This document shows positions 4,528 through 36,535 of a stretch of DNA of 36,535 nucleotides, one piece after another; position 1 is the stretch's first letter, and the number at the start of each line of letters is the position of its first letter. This DNA is from an uncultured Synechococcus sp. (GTDB taxonomy: Bacteria > Cyanobacteriota > Cyanobacteriia > PCC-6307 > Cyanobiaceae). The stretch is from contig CAJWXK010000004.1 in assembly GCA_913048995.1 (NCBI GenBank), positions 1-36,535 of the forward strand. The letters are read 5' to 3'. Made by a program: the position numbers and the translations under genes. The notes under the pieces are model-generated. The model ran no database searches, was not told the DNA's origin, and saw only the letters and a list, made by a program, of their open reading frames with translations.

Positions 4528-5082
4528 TTAACACTGGAGTTGCTTCCCCCGCTCCGTAATCCAGCCATCAAACGGCACATCCCAGGGTTCAACGACCAGC
4601 TCGGCGCAGCTGCAGCAATGCGGCATCACCATCAAGGCCGGCACAGCACGCCACTCGGGTTGGGCCCTGAAGCGGTCGTACCAGCCGCCGCCGCTGCCTA
4701 AGCGAATCCCGCTGCTGGAGCCGGCCAGGGCTGGCACCAGCAGCAGAGCCAGCTGCGCAGGCTCAAGCGGCGCTCCTGTGGGTGCGGGAATGCCGCAGGC
4801 ATCCTCTGCCAGGTCATCACCGGGCTGCCAGGCGGCATAAACCAGGCCTCCCGCTTCCGCTCGCGGCAGGGCCAGTCCGCCGGGCCATCGCGGTGGAGGG
4901 TCGATCAACCGGGCCTCCGCCCCAAGAGGCCAGAACAGCCCCAGTCGCCCTGGTCGTTGCAGTTCGGTTAGGGCCTGATGCACCGCTGCGGTGAGCGCAT
5001 CTGCCCTCTGAACCATCGCCAGTTGGCGTTGCTGACGCCAGTGACGTCGCTGCTCAGTTTTGGCCTCTGCGCTGGCGTTCAT
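4528..5082 (-). CDS. 5-formyltetrahydrofolate cyclo-ligase
   Basis: A 184-residue enzyme that converts 5-formyl-THF to 5,10-methenyl-THF with ATP hydrolysis, recycling a storage/inhibitory folate. The N-terminal helix with [11 protein letters not shown] carries the basic nucleotide-binding residues. The C-terminal signature [12 protein letters not shown] and the closing PFDGWITE segment are typical of the family (5-FTHF_cyc-lig). Length is at the short end of normal. Its ATG overlaps the ruvC stop by four bases (ATGA), so it is probably coupled to ruvC. The folate link with folD, elsewhere in this window, is functional rather than operonic. Confidence 0.93.
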
Positions 5083-5555
5083 CGCTGGTACCAGGCCGTT
5101 AGCCCAACCGCGAGGGCATCGGCAGCGTCGTCGGGCTTGGGACGCTCACTGAGCTGCAGCTCTCGCATCACGGCATCCTGCACATCGCCCTTTTCGGCAT
5201 GGCCTGAGCCCGCTAGGGCCAGCTTGATCTGCATTGGTGGGTATTCCACCGTCGGGATGCGAAAGCGGGCCAGGGTCATCATCAGCACCCCGCGGGCTTG
5301 CACCACAGCAATGGTGTTGGAGGAGCGGTAGAAGAAAAACTTCTCCACCGCCGCTTGTTGGGGGCGGTGCAGCCTCAGCAGCTGGCGCAGATCACGGGCG
5401 ATCTCGACCAGCCGCTCACCTTCCGGACGGCCTGCGCCAGTGCTGATGATGCCGCAATCCACCATCACAGGTGGATCACGCCGTCTTTCAGGGTTGACAT
5501 CGATCACGCCGTAGCCCACGCGGGCCAGACCTGGATCGATGCCCAGGATGCGCAT
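5079..5555 (-). CDS. ruvC: Holliday junction resolvase RuvC
   Basis: A 158-residue crossover-junction endonuclease that cuts four-way junctions made by RuvAB branch migration. The start chosen is the ATG giving [19 protein letters not shown]: the first catalytic Asp is in IDPG, the second acidic residue in the segment [10 protein letters not shown], and the last pair in KPDDAADAL near the C-terminus. The open frame continues about 80 codons upstream, but that part lies inside chlI and is not RuvC-like. The gene starts 4 bp after the chlI stop and overlaps the cyclo-ligase start by four bases. Confidence 0.96.
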
Positions 5556-5559
5556 GGGT

Positions 5560-6651
5560 TCAGGCTGCCAGCGCCAGCTGGAAAGCGTCGCGGTCCTCGG
5601 GGTTGAGCCCGAACACTTGGCAGAAGACTTTGACCACGCGGTCACCGGAATCCACCGCCTCCAGCGGGTCCTTACGCAGGCGATGACGCAGGCAGCAGGC
5701 CACCACCCGGGCCACGTCCTCGTCATTGACCTCGCTGCGCCCCTCAAAAGCAGCCAAGGCGCGAGCCGCCCGGTTGGTGACGATGTCACCCCGCAGACCA
5801 TCGACTTCCAGCTGGCCGCAGACCTCTGAAATTTTTAGGCGCAAGTCAGGATCCATCACGACTGAGCCCAGTCGCTCCTGGGCAGCCACCACCTGCTGCT
5901 GCAATGTCTCTTGGGGCTCTGTGAACTGTCCGAGGAAACGCTCAGGGTCGCTGTCGAAGTCGCTGCGCTGCTCCACCACCTGCACCCGCTGCTCGGGGTC
6001 GCGCACGGTGCGCACCTCGACGCTCATGCCGAAGCGGTCGAGCAGCTGGGGCCGCAGCTCACCCTCCTCTGGGTTGCCTGAGCCGATCAGCACAAAACGG
6101 GCCGGGTGGCGCACGCTGACGCCTTCCCGCTCCACGGTGTTCCAGCCCGATGCAGCCGAGTCGAGCAGCACGTCCACCAGGTGGTCGTCGAGCAGGTTCA
6201 CCTCATCGACGTAGAGCAGGCCGCGATTGGCTTTAGCCAAGAGGCCTGGTTCAAAGGCCCGCACGCCCTCGCTGAGAGCCTTCTCGATGTCGATCGTGCC
6301 GCAGAGCCGGTCTTCTGTAGCGCCCAGCGGCAGATCCACCATCGGCACCTGGCAACTTCCCTGCTGCAGGGCTTCGCCCTGGCTGACCCGCTGGCGCACC
6401 TCTGCGCTCTGCAGGTCGGGGTCGCTGGGAGAGCTGTTGTAAGGATCGCCTTCCACCACCGGGATCTCCGGCAGCAGATCAGCAAGGGCACGGATCGTTG
6501 TGGATTTGCCGGTGCCCCGATCTCCCATGATCATCACGCCGCCGATGCGCGGGTCGATCACGTTCAGCAACAGGGCCAGCTTCATCTCCGCCTGGCCGAC
6601 GATGGCGGTGAAGGGAAACACCCGGCTTTTCAGAGCCTCAGACACTGGCAA
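5560..6651 (-). CDS. chlI: Magnesium chelatase subunit I (AAA+ ATPase)
   Basis: A 363-residue AAA+ subunit of the ChlIDH complex that inserts Mg into protoporphyrin IX, the committed step to chlorophyll. Seen: [10 protein letters not shown] at the N-terminus, Walker [10 protein letters not shown] (about residues 43-51), the Walker B-like segment [16 protein letters not shown], the sensor-like segment [20 protein letters not shown], and the C-terminal helical lid. No ATG precedes the conserved start; TTG at 6651 or GTG at 6645 must be used. It follows the DUF3370 gene by 31 bp and precedes ruvC by 4 bp, so the three may form one transcript. Length matches cyanobacterial ChlI. Confidence 0.97.
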
Positions 6652-6682
6652 CAGGCAAGGGGTCGCAGACGGAGTGCCGTCT

Positions 6683-8017
6683 TCAGGATTCGGATTGTTT
6701 CACAGGCACCACGGTGAGCACTTGTACAGGGGTGATGTCGGCCGGAACAATTAGGCGCACTCGGGCCATGCGCTGCTCACCTGGGTCGAGTGTGATCGTG
6801 CCCAGACTCTGGCCTGGATCCCCCTTGCGCAGCACCAGGTGCAGGTAGCGCCGACCGGGACTTTCGTCGCTGCCGCGCACCTCCACGGTGCCGCGAAAGA
6901 AAATCGGCCCCTTGGCTGGTCTGATGAACTTGAGGCCGCCTTGATGGCGATCGGCTTTCAGCGGTGACTCAAGCCGCAGGTCATAGCTGCAAGGCCGGTT
7001 CGTGCTGTTCTTGAGGGGCAGCTTGAGGTCGTATTCGACCCCGTAGTTGCCGTGAGCCTCCCAGGAGGTTCCTGGATAGAAGGCCTGCAGCTGGGCGCTC
7101 TGCACCTGGGCGGTGCCGAGGCTGCCGCGCTGCAGGCTGGCAATCGGCCAAGAGATGGGCTGATTGCCGAGTTTCAGCGTTGGGCTGCCTGGATCACTGA
7201 GCTGGCCACTCCAGCGGCTGCCGATCTGCACGCCGCTGACGCGTGAGTAGATGATCGAGCCCGGTGCCCCTTTGGGGCTGGCGCGGTGCTCCTTGGAGCT
7301 GAGGCCACCATCGAGCAGGCCGAGTAGGGCTGAGGCGTCTGGAGCGTTGTCGCTGATCAGCCCCACCGTCGCCAGGGAGACCGGTCCATCGCTTAACAGG
7401 CGTAAGTGCAGCGTGCGCCCGTTGAGCAGGGGGTCAAGCCCTTTGACAGGTAAAGGCAGGGTCAGGAGTACCCGGGTGGCCCCAGGCCCCAGGGTGATCT
7501 GCTCGGGCAGCTCCGCTGGCCGCGGTGCACCAGCAATCAGATCGCCGGCAGTGCGGCTGCCGGGGCCGGCGTAGACGCTCAGCCCGTCGTGCTCCATGCG
7601 CGGCGGCATCGGCAGGAACGGTGCTCCAGGCTGGGAGAGGTAGGTCGCCCCGCTGGGCACCCGCACTGTGACCTCCTGATCGCTGCGGTTGCCAAGGATC
7701 ACCCCCAGCCAGAGGGTGCTCTCGGTGGCTCCTTTGGCGCCGGCATAGACGTGGTGGCTGAAGAGATCAAAGGCCCCCTGCAGCGGCACGTTGAGATGAG
7801 CCGATGGCACCTCGCGGCCGCTGCCATCAAAGGTGGAGAGCAAGATGCCGTCTTCAGTGACCACCTCCGGGTTGTTGTCATTGACCATCAGCCGCTGATC
7901 CAGGCCGCCAGGCAGTGGCCGCACCTCTCCGCTGCGCAGCTCCTGGCTGCTCACGGGTAGGGATGGCATGCCCAGCAGGGTGGCGCCCAGGAGGGCTGGC
8001 AGGAGCAGGGGTCGCAT
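6683..8017 (-). CDS. Exported DUF3370 protein
   Basis: About 444 residues with a signal peptide (MRPLLLPALLGATLLGMPSL, cleavage near VSSQ). It matches my memory of cyanobacterial DUF3370 proteins: an early segment LPGGLDQRLMVNDNNPEVVT, then SHHVYAGAKG and a long beta-rich periplasmic part, ending in a pattern YLHLVLRKGDPGQ. Function is not known; a cell-envelope role is likely from export. Start: ATG at 8017 shares one base with the stop of the beta-lactamase-like gene (TGATG); a GTG at 8020 is also possible. This coupling suggests the two exported proteins act together. Confidence 0.85.
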   Translation of the reverse strand: MRPLLLPALLGATLLGMPSLPVSSQELRSGEVRPLPGGLDQRLMVNDNNPEVVTEDGILLSTFDGSGREVPSAHLNVPLQGAFDLFSHHVYAGAKGATESTLWLGVILGNRSDQEVTVRVPSGATYLSQPGAPFLPMPPRMEHDGLSVYAGPGSRTAGDLIAGAPRPAELPEQITLGPGATRVLLTLPLPVKGLDPLLNGRTLHLRLLSDGPVSLATVGLISDNAPDASALLGLLDGGLSSKEHRASPKGAPGSIIYSRVSGVQIGSRWSGQLSDPGSPTLKLGNQPISWPIASLQRGSLGTAQVQSAQLQAFYPGTSWEAHGNYGVEYDLKLPLKNSTNRPCSYDLRLESPLKADRHQGGLKFIRPAKGPIFFRGTVEVRGSDESPGRRYLHLVLRKGDPGQSLGTITLDPGEQRMARVRLIVPADITPVQVLTVVPVKQSES

Positions 8018-33063: not shown

Positions 33064-34455
33064 TCAGATTGAGGTCGTTGAAGCCGCCGTTGCGGCGGCG
33101 TGCCCAAACCGCTGGGCTATCGAAGGGCATCCACCCCACTGGAGGTGAAGCCAGCTTGCGTGGATTGCGGCGTTGGACCATCCCTCCACCCTAGACCTCA
33201 CCCCCCATCCCTCCAGGTGCCAGAGGGGCTCGGCCAAGGTACGGTCCGCTTCCTCAACCAGTTCCAGCTGCCAGCGGTGGAATTCATGGCCTCGCAACTT
33301 CTCTCCTTGGCGAACGACGAGCCCATCGCTGCGGGTCGTGGCCGTGCGGTAGCCCAGGCTTAACGCCCCTTTTCTGGCATTGAGCGGCAACAGAGCCGCC
33401 ATGGCATGGGACTGTCCGTCGCGGTCCACCAGGTTCCGCCCCAACAAGAGCAGACCACCACATTCGGCATAGATCGGTCGCCTGGCCTGTCCATGGGCTG
33501 CCAAGGATCCCAGGCTGCGACGGCAGCGGCTGAGTTCAGCGGCATGGAGCTCGGGGTAGCCCCCTGGCAGCACCACCGCTGCGGTGTTCTCAGGCAGTGG
33601 CTCATCTCTCAGTGGTGCCCACCACTGCACCTGGCAGCCAAGGCGTTGGAGGGATTCAGGCAGTTCTGGGTAGCAGAAATGGAAGGCCTGATCGCGCGCG
33701 ATGGCCACCACCGGCTCTTGTGGCGGGATGAGTGGGCGAAGCTCTTCGAGTGGATTGACCGCGTTTTGCCCTGCGCTGTTGCCTGAGTGCAGCAGTGGCA
33801 TCAGTTGCTCGAGCTCCAGCCACTGCGGTGCCAGGTCAGCTAGCTGCTCAAGACGTTCATTCCAGTCCGGTAGCTCCTGGGGAGGGATTAAACCCAGATG
33901 CCGGCTCGGCAGCTCCAGGGCCGGATGGCGTGGCAGTACCCCCAGCAGTGGCATGCCGATGCCCTCCAGGCTCTCGCGCAGCAGCTGTTGGTGCCGATCG
34001 GTGGAGACGCCATTGAGTACCACGCCGGCTAGCTGGAGCTCGCTGTCATGGTCGCGAAAACCTCGCACCAGAGCAGCCAGGGAGCCGGCCTGGCGGCTGG
34101 CTTCCACAACCAGCAGCACGGGTAATTGCAGGGTCTTGGCTACAGCAGCGCTGCTGCCCTTTGAACTGGGTCCGAGCCCGTCAAAAAGACCCATCACCCC
34201 TTCCACCAGGGCAAGCGGTTGCTGTCGGCTCCACCAGTGGTAGCTGCGCTGCACCCACTGCTCATCGCAGAGCAGTAGATCAAGGTTGCGGCATGGGCGT
34301 CCACTGGCACGGCCCAGAAGCTGGGGGTCCAGGTAGTCCGGACCGACCTTGAAGCTCTGAAGACCCTGACCGCGCTTGCGAGCCACCGCCGCCAAGAGCA
34401 GGGATACCAGGGTCTTGCCGCTGCCGCTGCACGGGGCTGCGATCAGAAGGGTCAA
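33064..34455 (-). CDS. cobB: Cobyrinate a,c-diamide synthase (CobB/CbiA)
   Basis: A 463-residue enzyme amidating cobyrinate at positions a and c in cobalamin (here probably pseudocobalamin) synthesis, using glutamine and ATP. The N-terminal dethiobiotin-synthetase-like ATPase has the P-loop APCSGSGKT at residues 7-15 and the segment FKVGPDYLDP. The C-terminal GATase has VVLPGGYPELHAAEL and the nucleophile Cys in YAECGGLLLLG. No ATG is near; TTG at 34455, 13 bp after opcA, is directly before the conserved strand. The zwf-opcA-cobB order is, as I recall, common in marine picocyanobacteria. Confidence 0.95.
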   Translation of the reverse strand: MTLLIAAPCSGSGKTLVSLLLAAVARKRGQGLQSFKVGPDYLDPQLLGRASGRPCRNLDLLLCDEQWVQRSYHWWSRQQPLALVEGVMGLFDGLGPSSKGSSAAVAKTLQLPVLLVVEASRQAGSLAALVRGFRDHDSELQLAGVVLNGVSTDRHQQLLRESLEGIGMPLLGVLPRHPALELPSRHLGLIPPQELPDWNERLEQLADLAPQWLELEQLMPLLHSGNSAGQNAVNPLEELRPLIPPQEPVVAIARDQAFHFCYPELPESLQRLGCQVQWWAPLRDEPLPENTAAVVLPGGYPELHAAELSRCRRSLGSLAAHGQARRPIYAECGGLLLLGRNLVDRDGQSHAMAALLPLNARKGALSLGYRTATTRSDGLVVRQGEKLRGHEFHRWQLELVEEADRTLAEPLWHLEGWGVRSRVEGWSNAAIHASWLHLQWGGCPSIAQRFGHAAATAASTTSI

Positions 34456-34468
34456 TTCAGCCGACTCG

Positions 34469-35755
34469 TCAGCGAGGCAGCAGTCTGGATGCCAGGGGGA
34501 CGCAAGCGGCCAGCAACGGATTGGTGCTGTCGTGGCCGCCGCGCAGGGTGCGGGACACTTCGCGTTGCACGCTCTCGATTGTGGAGATCACCACCTCCTC
34601 CACCAGCTCCAGCTGGGCCATACCGCCGGCCTCCAGCCGCATGCAGCCGCCAGTCTCGCCGCAGAGAATGACGCAGAGGGGGGGGCGATGCTCTGGCTTG
34701 CAGACCATGCGCAGGCCTACCAGCGAGCCGGGGTGGGTGCTTGGTTCGCCTACGGGCACAGGCATCTGGCGGAACTGGACCAACTCGCCGTCACTGCGGC
34801 GGAAGCTGGCTGTGATGCCGTCACCTTCGGCACGGCCGGTCTCTTCCAGGCTCCAGCCCAGCCGATTGGCAATCCAGGCGGCCATTAACAGACCTTGCAC
34901 CGGCTGGTGGCCCTGGACGTCGATATCGAGCTGCACCACATGGGCAAGGGCATCCCGCCTATCGGGTTGGTCGAAGACCATCGCTAGGTTCTCTCGCCAG
35001 CTCAGGAGGCGGTACCAGTTCAGATCACTGATGGCTTGGCCGCTGGCAGCGCGCTGGCAGAGCACATCCAGAGCCCGAGCTGGTGAGCCCACGGCGGTAT
35101 CCACAATCAGACGACGGGGAGCCTGGCTGAGGCCCTCGAAGAGCTGGGGAGCCTCATCGAGGGCCCCGTTCCACCACACCCAGCAGGGAAGTTCGGGGGG
35201 AATGAGCGGATTCACCATCGAGAGCGCCTGTTCCAAGGCACCCATCCCGCCGCGCATCACGACCACGTCACCGCAGACAGCCGTAAACGGGCCCTCCTCG
35301 GGGAGAGGGCAGTAGGCAGCTACAAGAGTCTCCAGGCTTTTTTGACCCTCGAGCGTCGGGGCAAGGGTGATCAATCGGCGGGGCTGGTGTCGGCTGATGG
35401 CTGAATCCACATGCTGGCCGCGCAGGTCATCGGCCTTCGATTCGCCAGGGAGCTGCCCAAGTTGCCAAGCCAGTTCTGGATCTAATGGTGAGGTGGAAGG
35501 GGGCAAACCACAGGCGGGTGTGGCCTGACGCGCGGCCTGCAGCAGTTCGGGACGCTCCAGACCTGTAATTGGTCCATCGAGGCGTCCGAGTCGCACGAGG
35601 TGTTGCTCGATCCAGGAGGGCTGCCAGACCACCAAAGAGAAGGTGGATGCCCCATTGGCTTGGTCCTGATCCCCGCTCCAGAGCCGTCCGAGATAGTCGG
35701 AGACATCTTGGGGGGGCAGTTCGAGCGGGGCCTGAAGAGTGAGCTGCGGAGCCAT
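34469..35755 (-). CDS. opcA: Glucose-6-phosphate dehydrogenase assembly protein OpcA
   Basis: A 428-residue cytosolic protein that activates and oligomerises glucose-6-phosphate dehydrogenase (Zwf), allowing oxidative pentose phosphate flux in darkness. The identity comes from family segments LTLQAPLELPPQDVSDYLG, RLITLAPTLEGQKSLETLVA, DTAVGSPARALDVLC and the position directly after zwf. In cyanobacteria OpcA couples Zwf to thioredoxin redox state. ATG at 35755 is used. It follows the zwf stop by 49 bp and is followed by cobB after 13 bp. Length is typical. Confidence 0.95.
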   Translation of the reverse strand: MAPQLTLQAPLELPPQDVSDYLGRLWSGDQDQANGASTFSLVVWQPSWIEQHLVRLGRLDGPITGLERPELLQAARQATPACGLPPSTSPLDPELAWQLGQLPGESKADDLRGQHVDSAISRHQPRRLITLAPTLEGQKSLETLVAAYCPLPEEGPFTAVCGDVVVMRGGMGALEQALSMVNPLIPPELPCWVWWNGALDEAPQLFEGLSQAPRRLIVDTAVGSPARALDVLCQRAASGQAISDLNWYRLLSWRENLAMVFDQPDRRDALAHVVQLDIDVQGHQPVQGLLMAAWIANRLGWSLEETGRAEGDGITASFRRSDGELVQFRQMPVPVGEPSTHPGSLVGLRMVCKPEHRPPLCVILCGETGGCMRLEAGGMAQLELVEEVVISTIESVQREVSRTLRGGHDSTNPLLAACVPLASRLLPR

Positions 35756-35804
35756 GGGTCAACGATGGCGGAGGGAAGGAGAACGGGGCGAGGACAGGGG
35801 GTGA

Positions 35805-35855
35805 TCAGGGGCGGCGCCAGAGCAGGCCATCACGGGCCATGAGCTCGTCGCAGGC
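35805..35855 (-). CDS. zwf: C-terminal fragment of glucose-6-phosphate dehydrogenase (Zwf), cut at a junction
   Basis: The last 16 codons before the TGA at 35807-35805 read ACDELMARDGLLWRRP. The pattern (A)DELMARDG-x-x-WRRP resembles the C-terminus of cyanobacterial Zwf (E. coli ends with a related MITRDGRSW). Zwf is the enzyme expected immediately upstream of opcA. Upstream of about 35855 the same frame no longer resembles Zwf: the expected preceding GTWGP-like segment is missing and the base composition changes. The gene is therefore truncated in this assembly. Confidence 0.6.
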   Translation of the reverse strand, partial: ACDELMARDGLLWRRP

Positions 35856-36535
35856 CTGTCTGAGCGTCGCGTCGTCTCGGATCGCGAGCATCTGCTCGTG
35901 TGCCTGCGCGATTCGAGCGGATTCGAGAGTGGAATGCGGGTTGATCGCGCGGGGCCATCGGTGCGCGCGCCTGCCCCTGCGCGATGCAGCGCTCGACGAC
36001 CTCGTCGATCCTGCCCAAGCCCGCCAGCTGCTGCAAGCGCGCGAATTGCACTTCCATCCGTCGCGCGCGCTCTTTCGCGTTCTGCACCCGCGCCACGGTG
36101 ATCCGCCGATTTACTTCGCCCTTGAGCTCGCCCTCCGCCTCGACGTCGAGGTCGAGCGCCAGCGCATTGGTCTTGCCGGAGGGGACGACCGCCAGCCGCG
36201 GCATGTCCGCGCCATAGAGGTCGCGCGCGCAGGTCAGCACGTTGTCGTCGCGGTCGGTGCCCAGCGTCGCCCGCAGCGAGCGCGGGTCGGTCTTGCGCGC
36301 CACCAGCGGGTCGTCCGGGCCGACCGCTGATGCCCAGCGGTCCTGCGCGCCCACCCCGCGAACCGCTAGCGCCAGCGACGGCGTCAGCGGGCGCACCCAC
36401 TCGTCGCCGCTCAGCGTGACGGTGAGGTTGGCGCCCTCTGACCGGACCGAGCCCTCGTCGGGCCGCGCGAAGGTGGCGCGCAGCCCGCCGAACTCGTCGG
36501 CGGCGCGGACGACGCGGTAGGCCGGGGGGTCGCAC
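35853..36535 (-). CDS. Foreign-looking GC-rich coding region, unidentified, frame broken, open at the edge
   Basis: From the right edge, one minus-strand frame reads as protein (DPPAYRVVRAADEFGGLRAT onward) with GC-rich third positions to about 35965. A protein-like continuation (INPHSTLESARIAQAHEQML then AIRDDATLRQ) lies in another frame. The shift falls in the GCGCGCGC tract at 35962-35970. About 225 residues are visible in total, with no start codon seen. One part, LAVVPSGKTNALALDLDVE, loosely recalls diacylglycerol-kinase-like proteins, but the usual GGDGT motif is absent. I do not assign a family. Dense CGCG/GCGC and alphaproteobacterium-like codon use differ sharply from all other genes here, so it is probably not from the same chromosome position. 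Confidence 0.55.

Follow-up and report, generated by a model that had tools for sequence, protein, structure and literature searches.

The window, a stretch of 36,535 bp that makes up the whole of contig C4, almost certainly has a chimeric right end, in which cyanobacterial DNA has been artificially joined to ∼680 bp from another organism, probably a eukaryote. C4 belongs to a draft assembly of 1.81 Mb in 142 contigs (82% complete, 2.2% contamination) and, as the window is a complete contig of this draft genome, the join is located at the end of a contig. The features of the region are as follows.

34469 to 35755, minus strand: opcA, intact, predicting a glucose-6-phosphate dehydrogenase assembly protein of 428 aa (Pfam OpcA_G6PD_assem, 2e-24; OpcA_G6PD_C, 4.3e-23).
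35801 to 35849, minus strand: 3′-end of zwf, the last ∼14 codons (DELMARDGLLWRRP) and the stop codon, identified by aligning the window with five congeners that have the whole gene.
35841 to 35855, no strand: join between cyanobacterial and foreign DNA, from the end of BLASTN similarity (35840-35855) and a Markov change point (35865).
35856 to 36535, no strand: foreign GC-rich segment of ∼680 bp reaching the contig end, from its composition; it lacks similarity to the cyanobacterial DNA examined.
35968 to 36534, minus strand: coding fragment of foreign origin, a frame without stops over 189 codons that runs off the contig end, from codon GC and similarity to NME7, TXNDC6 and NME5.
About 36226 to 36381, minus strand: nucleoside diphosphate kinase (NDK)-like piece, from comparison with PDB sequences, followed by a long helix predicted by a structure model.

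The right end was compared with five sequenced congeners, of which G001 is the closest. BLASTN similarity to these genomes is unbroken through opcA (84-99% identity) and ends at 35840-35855, and the change point of an order-2 Markov analysis, with the foreign model trained on the tail itself, is at 35865. The end of homology and the shift in composition fall at the same place, an abrupt boundary that separates DNA of two origins. In the tail (35936 to 36535), the GC content is 0.738 versus 0.630±0.024 in 600-bp windows of the contig (maximum 0.692), the observed/expected CpG ratio is 1.34 versus 0.81±0.12 (maximum 1.19), and CGCG occurs 35 times per kb versus 5.2±3.1 (maximum 18.3). This composition is well outside chance for C4, and the abrupt switch from zwf to alien CGCG-rich DNA described in an earlier note is borne out.

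The gene order in G001 is petH (4949-6133), zwf (6224-7759) and opcA, where the frame at 4949-6133, named from its sequence, is presumably petH, encoding ferredoxin-NADP reductase. The zwf gene of G001 is a complete frame of 511 codons ending ADGLMARDGLLWRRP, and in all five congeners zwf is intact beside opcA with petH upstream, the predicted proteins having the C-terminus ADGLMARDGLLWRRP or SDSLLARDGLLWRRP. G001 and the window are 92% identical over 34400-35849. In the window, the zwf remnant adjoins opcA on its upstream side, on the minus strand, and alignment to the congeners agrees with the earlier reading of these last codons as zwf and of the rest of the gene as missing. No frame upstream of the last 14 codons resembles Zwf, and a frameshift in zwf was rejected for this reason. 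Where G001 zwf ends ADGLMARDGLLWRRP, the window reads QACDELMARDGLLWRRP, so that the join lies no more than a few codons before LMARDG; the exact base is uncertain because those few codons could come from either side.

The join falls where the assembly has a gap. Base 1 of contig C6 corresponds to G001 position 4872 and base 35849 of C4 to position 7715, so that these two bases flank ∼2.84 kb, and the 2842 bp between them, with petH and almost the whole of zwf, are missing. As the zwf/petH gap faces the end of C6, the tail would be attached at an assembly gap and would not replace zwf. C6 (L036 1-6000), the neighbour of C4 across the petH-zwf gap, stops ∼77 bp short of the petH frame and could be used for scaffolding to C4. 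A full-length zwf had been proposed as something to look for elsewhere in the assembly, and the C-terminal domain of glucose-6-phosphate dehydrogenase (PF02781) was found nowhere in it; the same was true of the NAD_binding_1 domain (PF00175) of ferredoxin-NADP reductase, and most control genomes match each of these models. The left end of C4 is normal, with 92% identity to G001 and the expected gene order. For 14 readable contigs other than C6, the opening ∼3 kb showed no composition like that of the foreign tail, and general contamination of the assembly is therefore not indicated. Contig C142 (2543 bp) consists of N throughout.

A real insertion or horizontal transfer into the chromosome of the cyanobacterium, with destruction of zwf and also of petH, would fit the continuity of the assembled contig across the join and the failure to find either gene elsewhere in the assembly, but it is highly improbable. 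It would also have cost the cell petH, which is needed for photosynthesis, while all five congeners are intact and the join is at a contig end that lies opposite another contig end. Moreover, the foreign gene piece is internal, with neither end present, and nothing recognisable as an integrase, insertion sequence or repeat was seen at the join. The earlier note had considered true recombination implausible on account of zwf, and the absence of petH as well makes such a replacement still less plausible. A misjoined contig, one of the sources of error that it named as most likely, is by a wide margin the best explanation, supported by the five intact congeners, by the gap facing the end of C6 and by the lack of a counterpart to the tail in any of these genomes.

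Under this explanation of a misjoined contig, C4 would be a true cyanobacterial contig that was broken within the 3′-end of zwf, and ∼680 bp from another organism in the sample would have been attached to the broken end, either by the assembler or in a chimeric library molecule. The attached piece would come from inside the coding region of a gene that is GC-rich, probably eukaryotic, and encodes an NDK domain like those of NME group II (ciliary/flagellar); in the cyanobacterium it would have no function.

The GC contents of the foreign frame at the three codon positions (0.77/0.51/0.93, versus 0.72/0.49/0.72 for opcA) are a strong coding signature, and NDK domains are the sole relatives of this frame that could be recognised. 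The coding signal fades between ∼35967 and the join, which could be due to a one-base slip near 35955 or to the end of an exon. In the interval 35850-35960, the NDK-like frame weakens near 35960 and a second minus-strand frame (INPHSTLESARIAQAHEQMLAIRDDATLRQA) has the look of a protein; the two could be linked by the slip of one base in a GGGG run near 35955.

In comparisons of the predicted product with PDB sequences, NME7/FAP67, TXNDC6 and NME5 rank first. Thirteen of the 14 matches at E≤0.01 are eukaryotic proteins of the NME7/NME5/TXNDC6 type, so that the fragment resembles group II NDK domains more than it does canonical Ndk, and the remaining match is Ndk from Aquifex (3zto, 0.0015). The best single-domain match is to TXNDC6 (27.9 bits, i-E 2e-5) over a domain of ∼50 residues, and the value of 4.5e-8 for NME7 is a whole-sequence value that sums two domains matching the same stretch of the query. 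Only part of one NDK domain is recognisable, with a Pfam NDK score below the cut-off, and the alignment shows the motif GPDDPLVARKTDPRSLRATLGTDRDDN. Where NAVH has its catalytic His, Thr is found here (NVLT), and the domain, judged by this substitution, is probably inactive. The frame extends ∼90 residues beyond the NDK motif, and this stretch has no relative in the PDB. The helix predicted here comes from a low-confidence single-sequence structure model (pLDDT 41.5) that was too poor for a fold search. A Pfam match of the tail to DAGK_cat was below the cut-off and was rejected as chance, and searches of the tail against NCBIfam and Rfam gave no match.

The tail was not found elsewhere in the same assembly or in genomes of the genus. 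No relative was detected among prokaryote genomes in an 84,980-species collection, using a scan that reaches close relatives only, and no convincing one was seen in viral contigs, plasmids or phages. Among 386 cyanobacterial genomes, two marginal matches of ∼19 bits were obtained besides the window itself, neither of them convincing. In one published study (PMC2978717), no group II NME gene was detected in organisms other than eukaryotes. Taken with the NME-type matches, the lack of a close relative in prokaryotes, viruses, plasmids and phages makes a GC-rich flagellated eukaryote the likeliest source, and on these comparisons the tail seems likely to derive from a microbial eukaryote of this kind in the same sample.

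The main alternative, a chimeric contig end with foreign DNA from a GC-rich bacterium, appears rather unlikely. High GC and CpG are also found in many bacteria, the coding frame has no stop and no demonstrable intron, and the weak similarity of the Aquifex Ndk leaves room for a bacterial source. However, the PDB matches are otherwise all eukaryotic, the catalytic His has been lost, the ∼90 residues after the motif are unlike a single-domain bacterial Ndk, and the scan of the 84,980-species collection, which reaches close relatives only, detected none. A proteobacterial source, for which the earlier note proposed a search, has no support, and the NME group II-like domain points to a source that is probably eukaryotic. 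Least probable of all the readings, and barely credible, is that some cyanobacterium of this lineage really has lost petH and zwf, perhaps as a symbiont dependent on a host, and bears a fragment of a eukaryotic-type flagellar NDK-like gene where they should be.

The foreign tail is almost certainly an ordinary assembly error that involves no biology, and not a real feature of the genome. For data quality, the contig should be trimmed from ∼35840-35850 to 36535, and this genome should not be taken to lack zwf or petH or to have acquired a foreign gene. False claims of horizontal transfer or gene loss can arise from short foreign stubs of this kind at the ends of contigs.

The foreign frame and the group II proteins of cilia and flagella, NME7/FAP67 and NME5/TXNDC6, have the motif GPxDPxxARxxxPxSLRAxxGTD in common and share 34-42% identity over ∼40-60 residues. 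The foreign frame differs in having Thr for the catalytic His and an unmatched sequence after the motif, and in being only a fragment. Chimeric contigs arising from metagenome misassembly have been described in the GUNC paper (PMC8201837), and C4 resembles these in combining fragments from two sources in one contig, with the foreign part at the contig end by a gap. It differs from them in its foreign part, which is very short, is probably of eukaryotic origin and would therefore hardly be detected by marker-based contamination checks.
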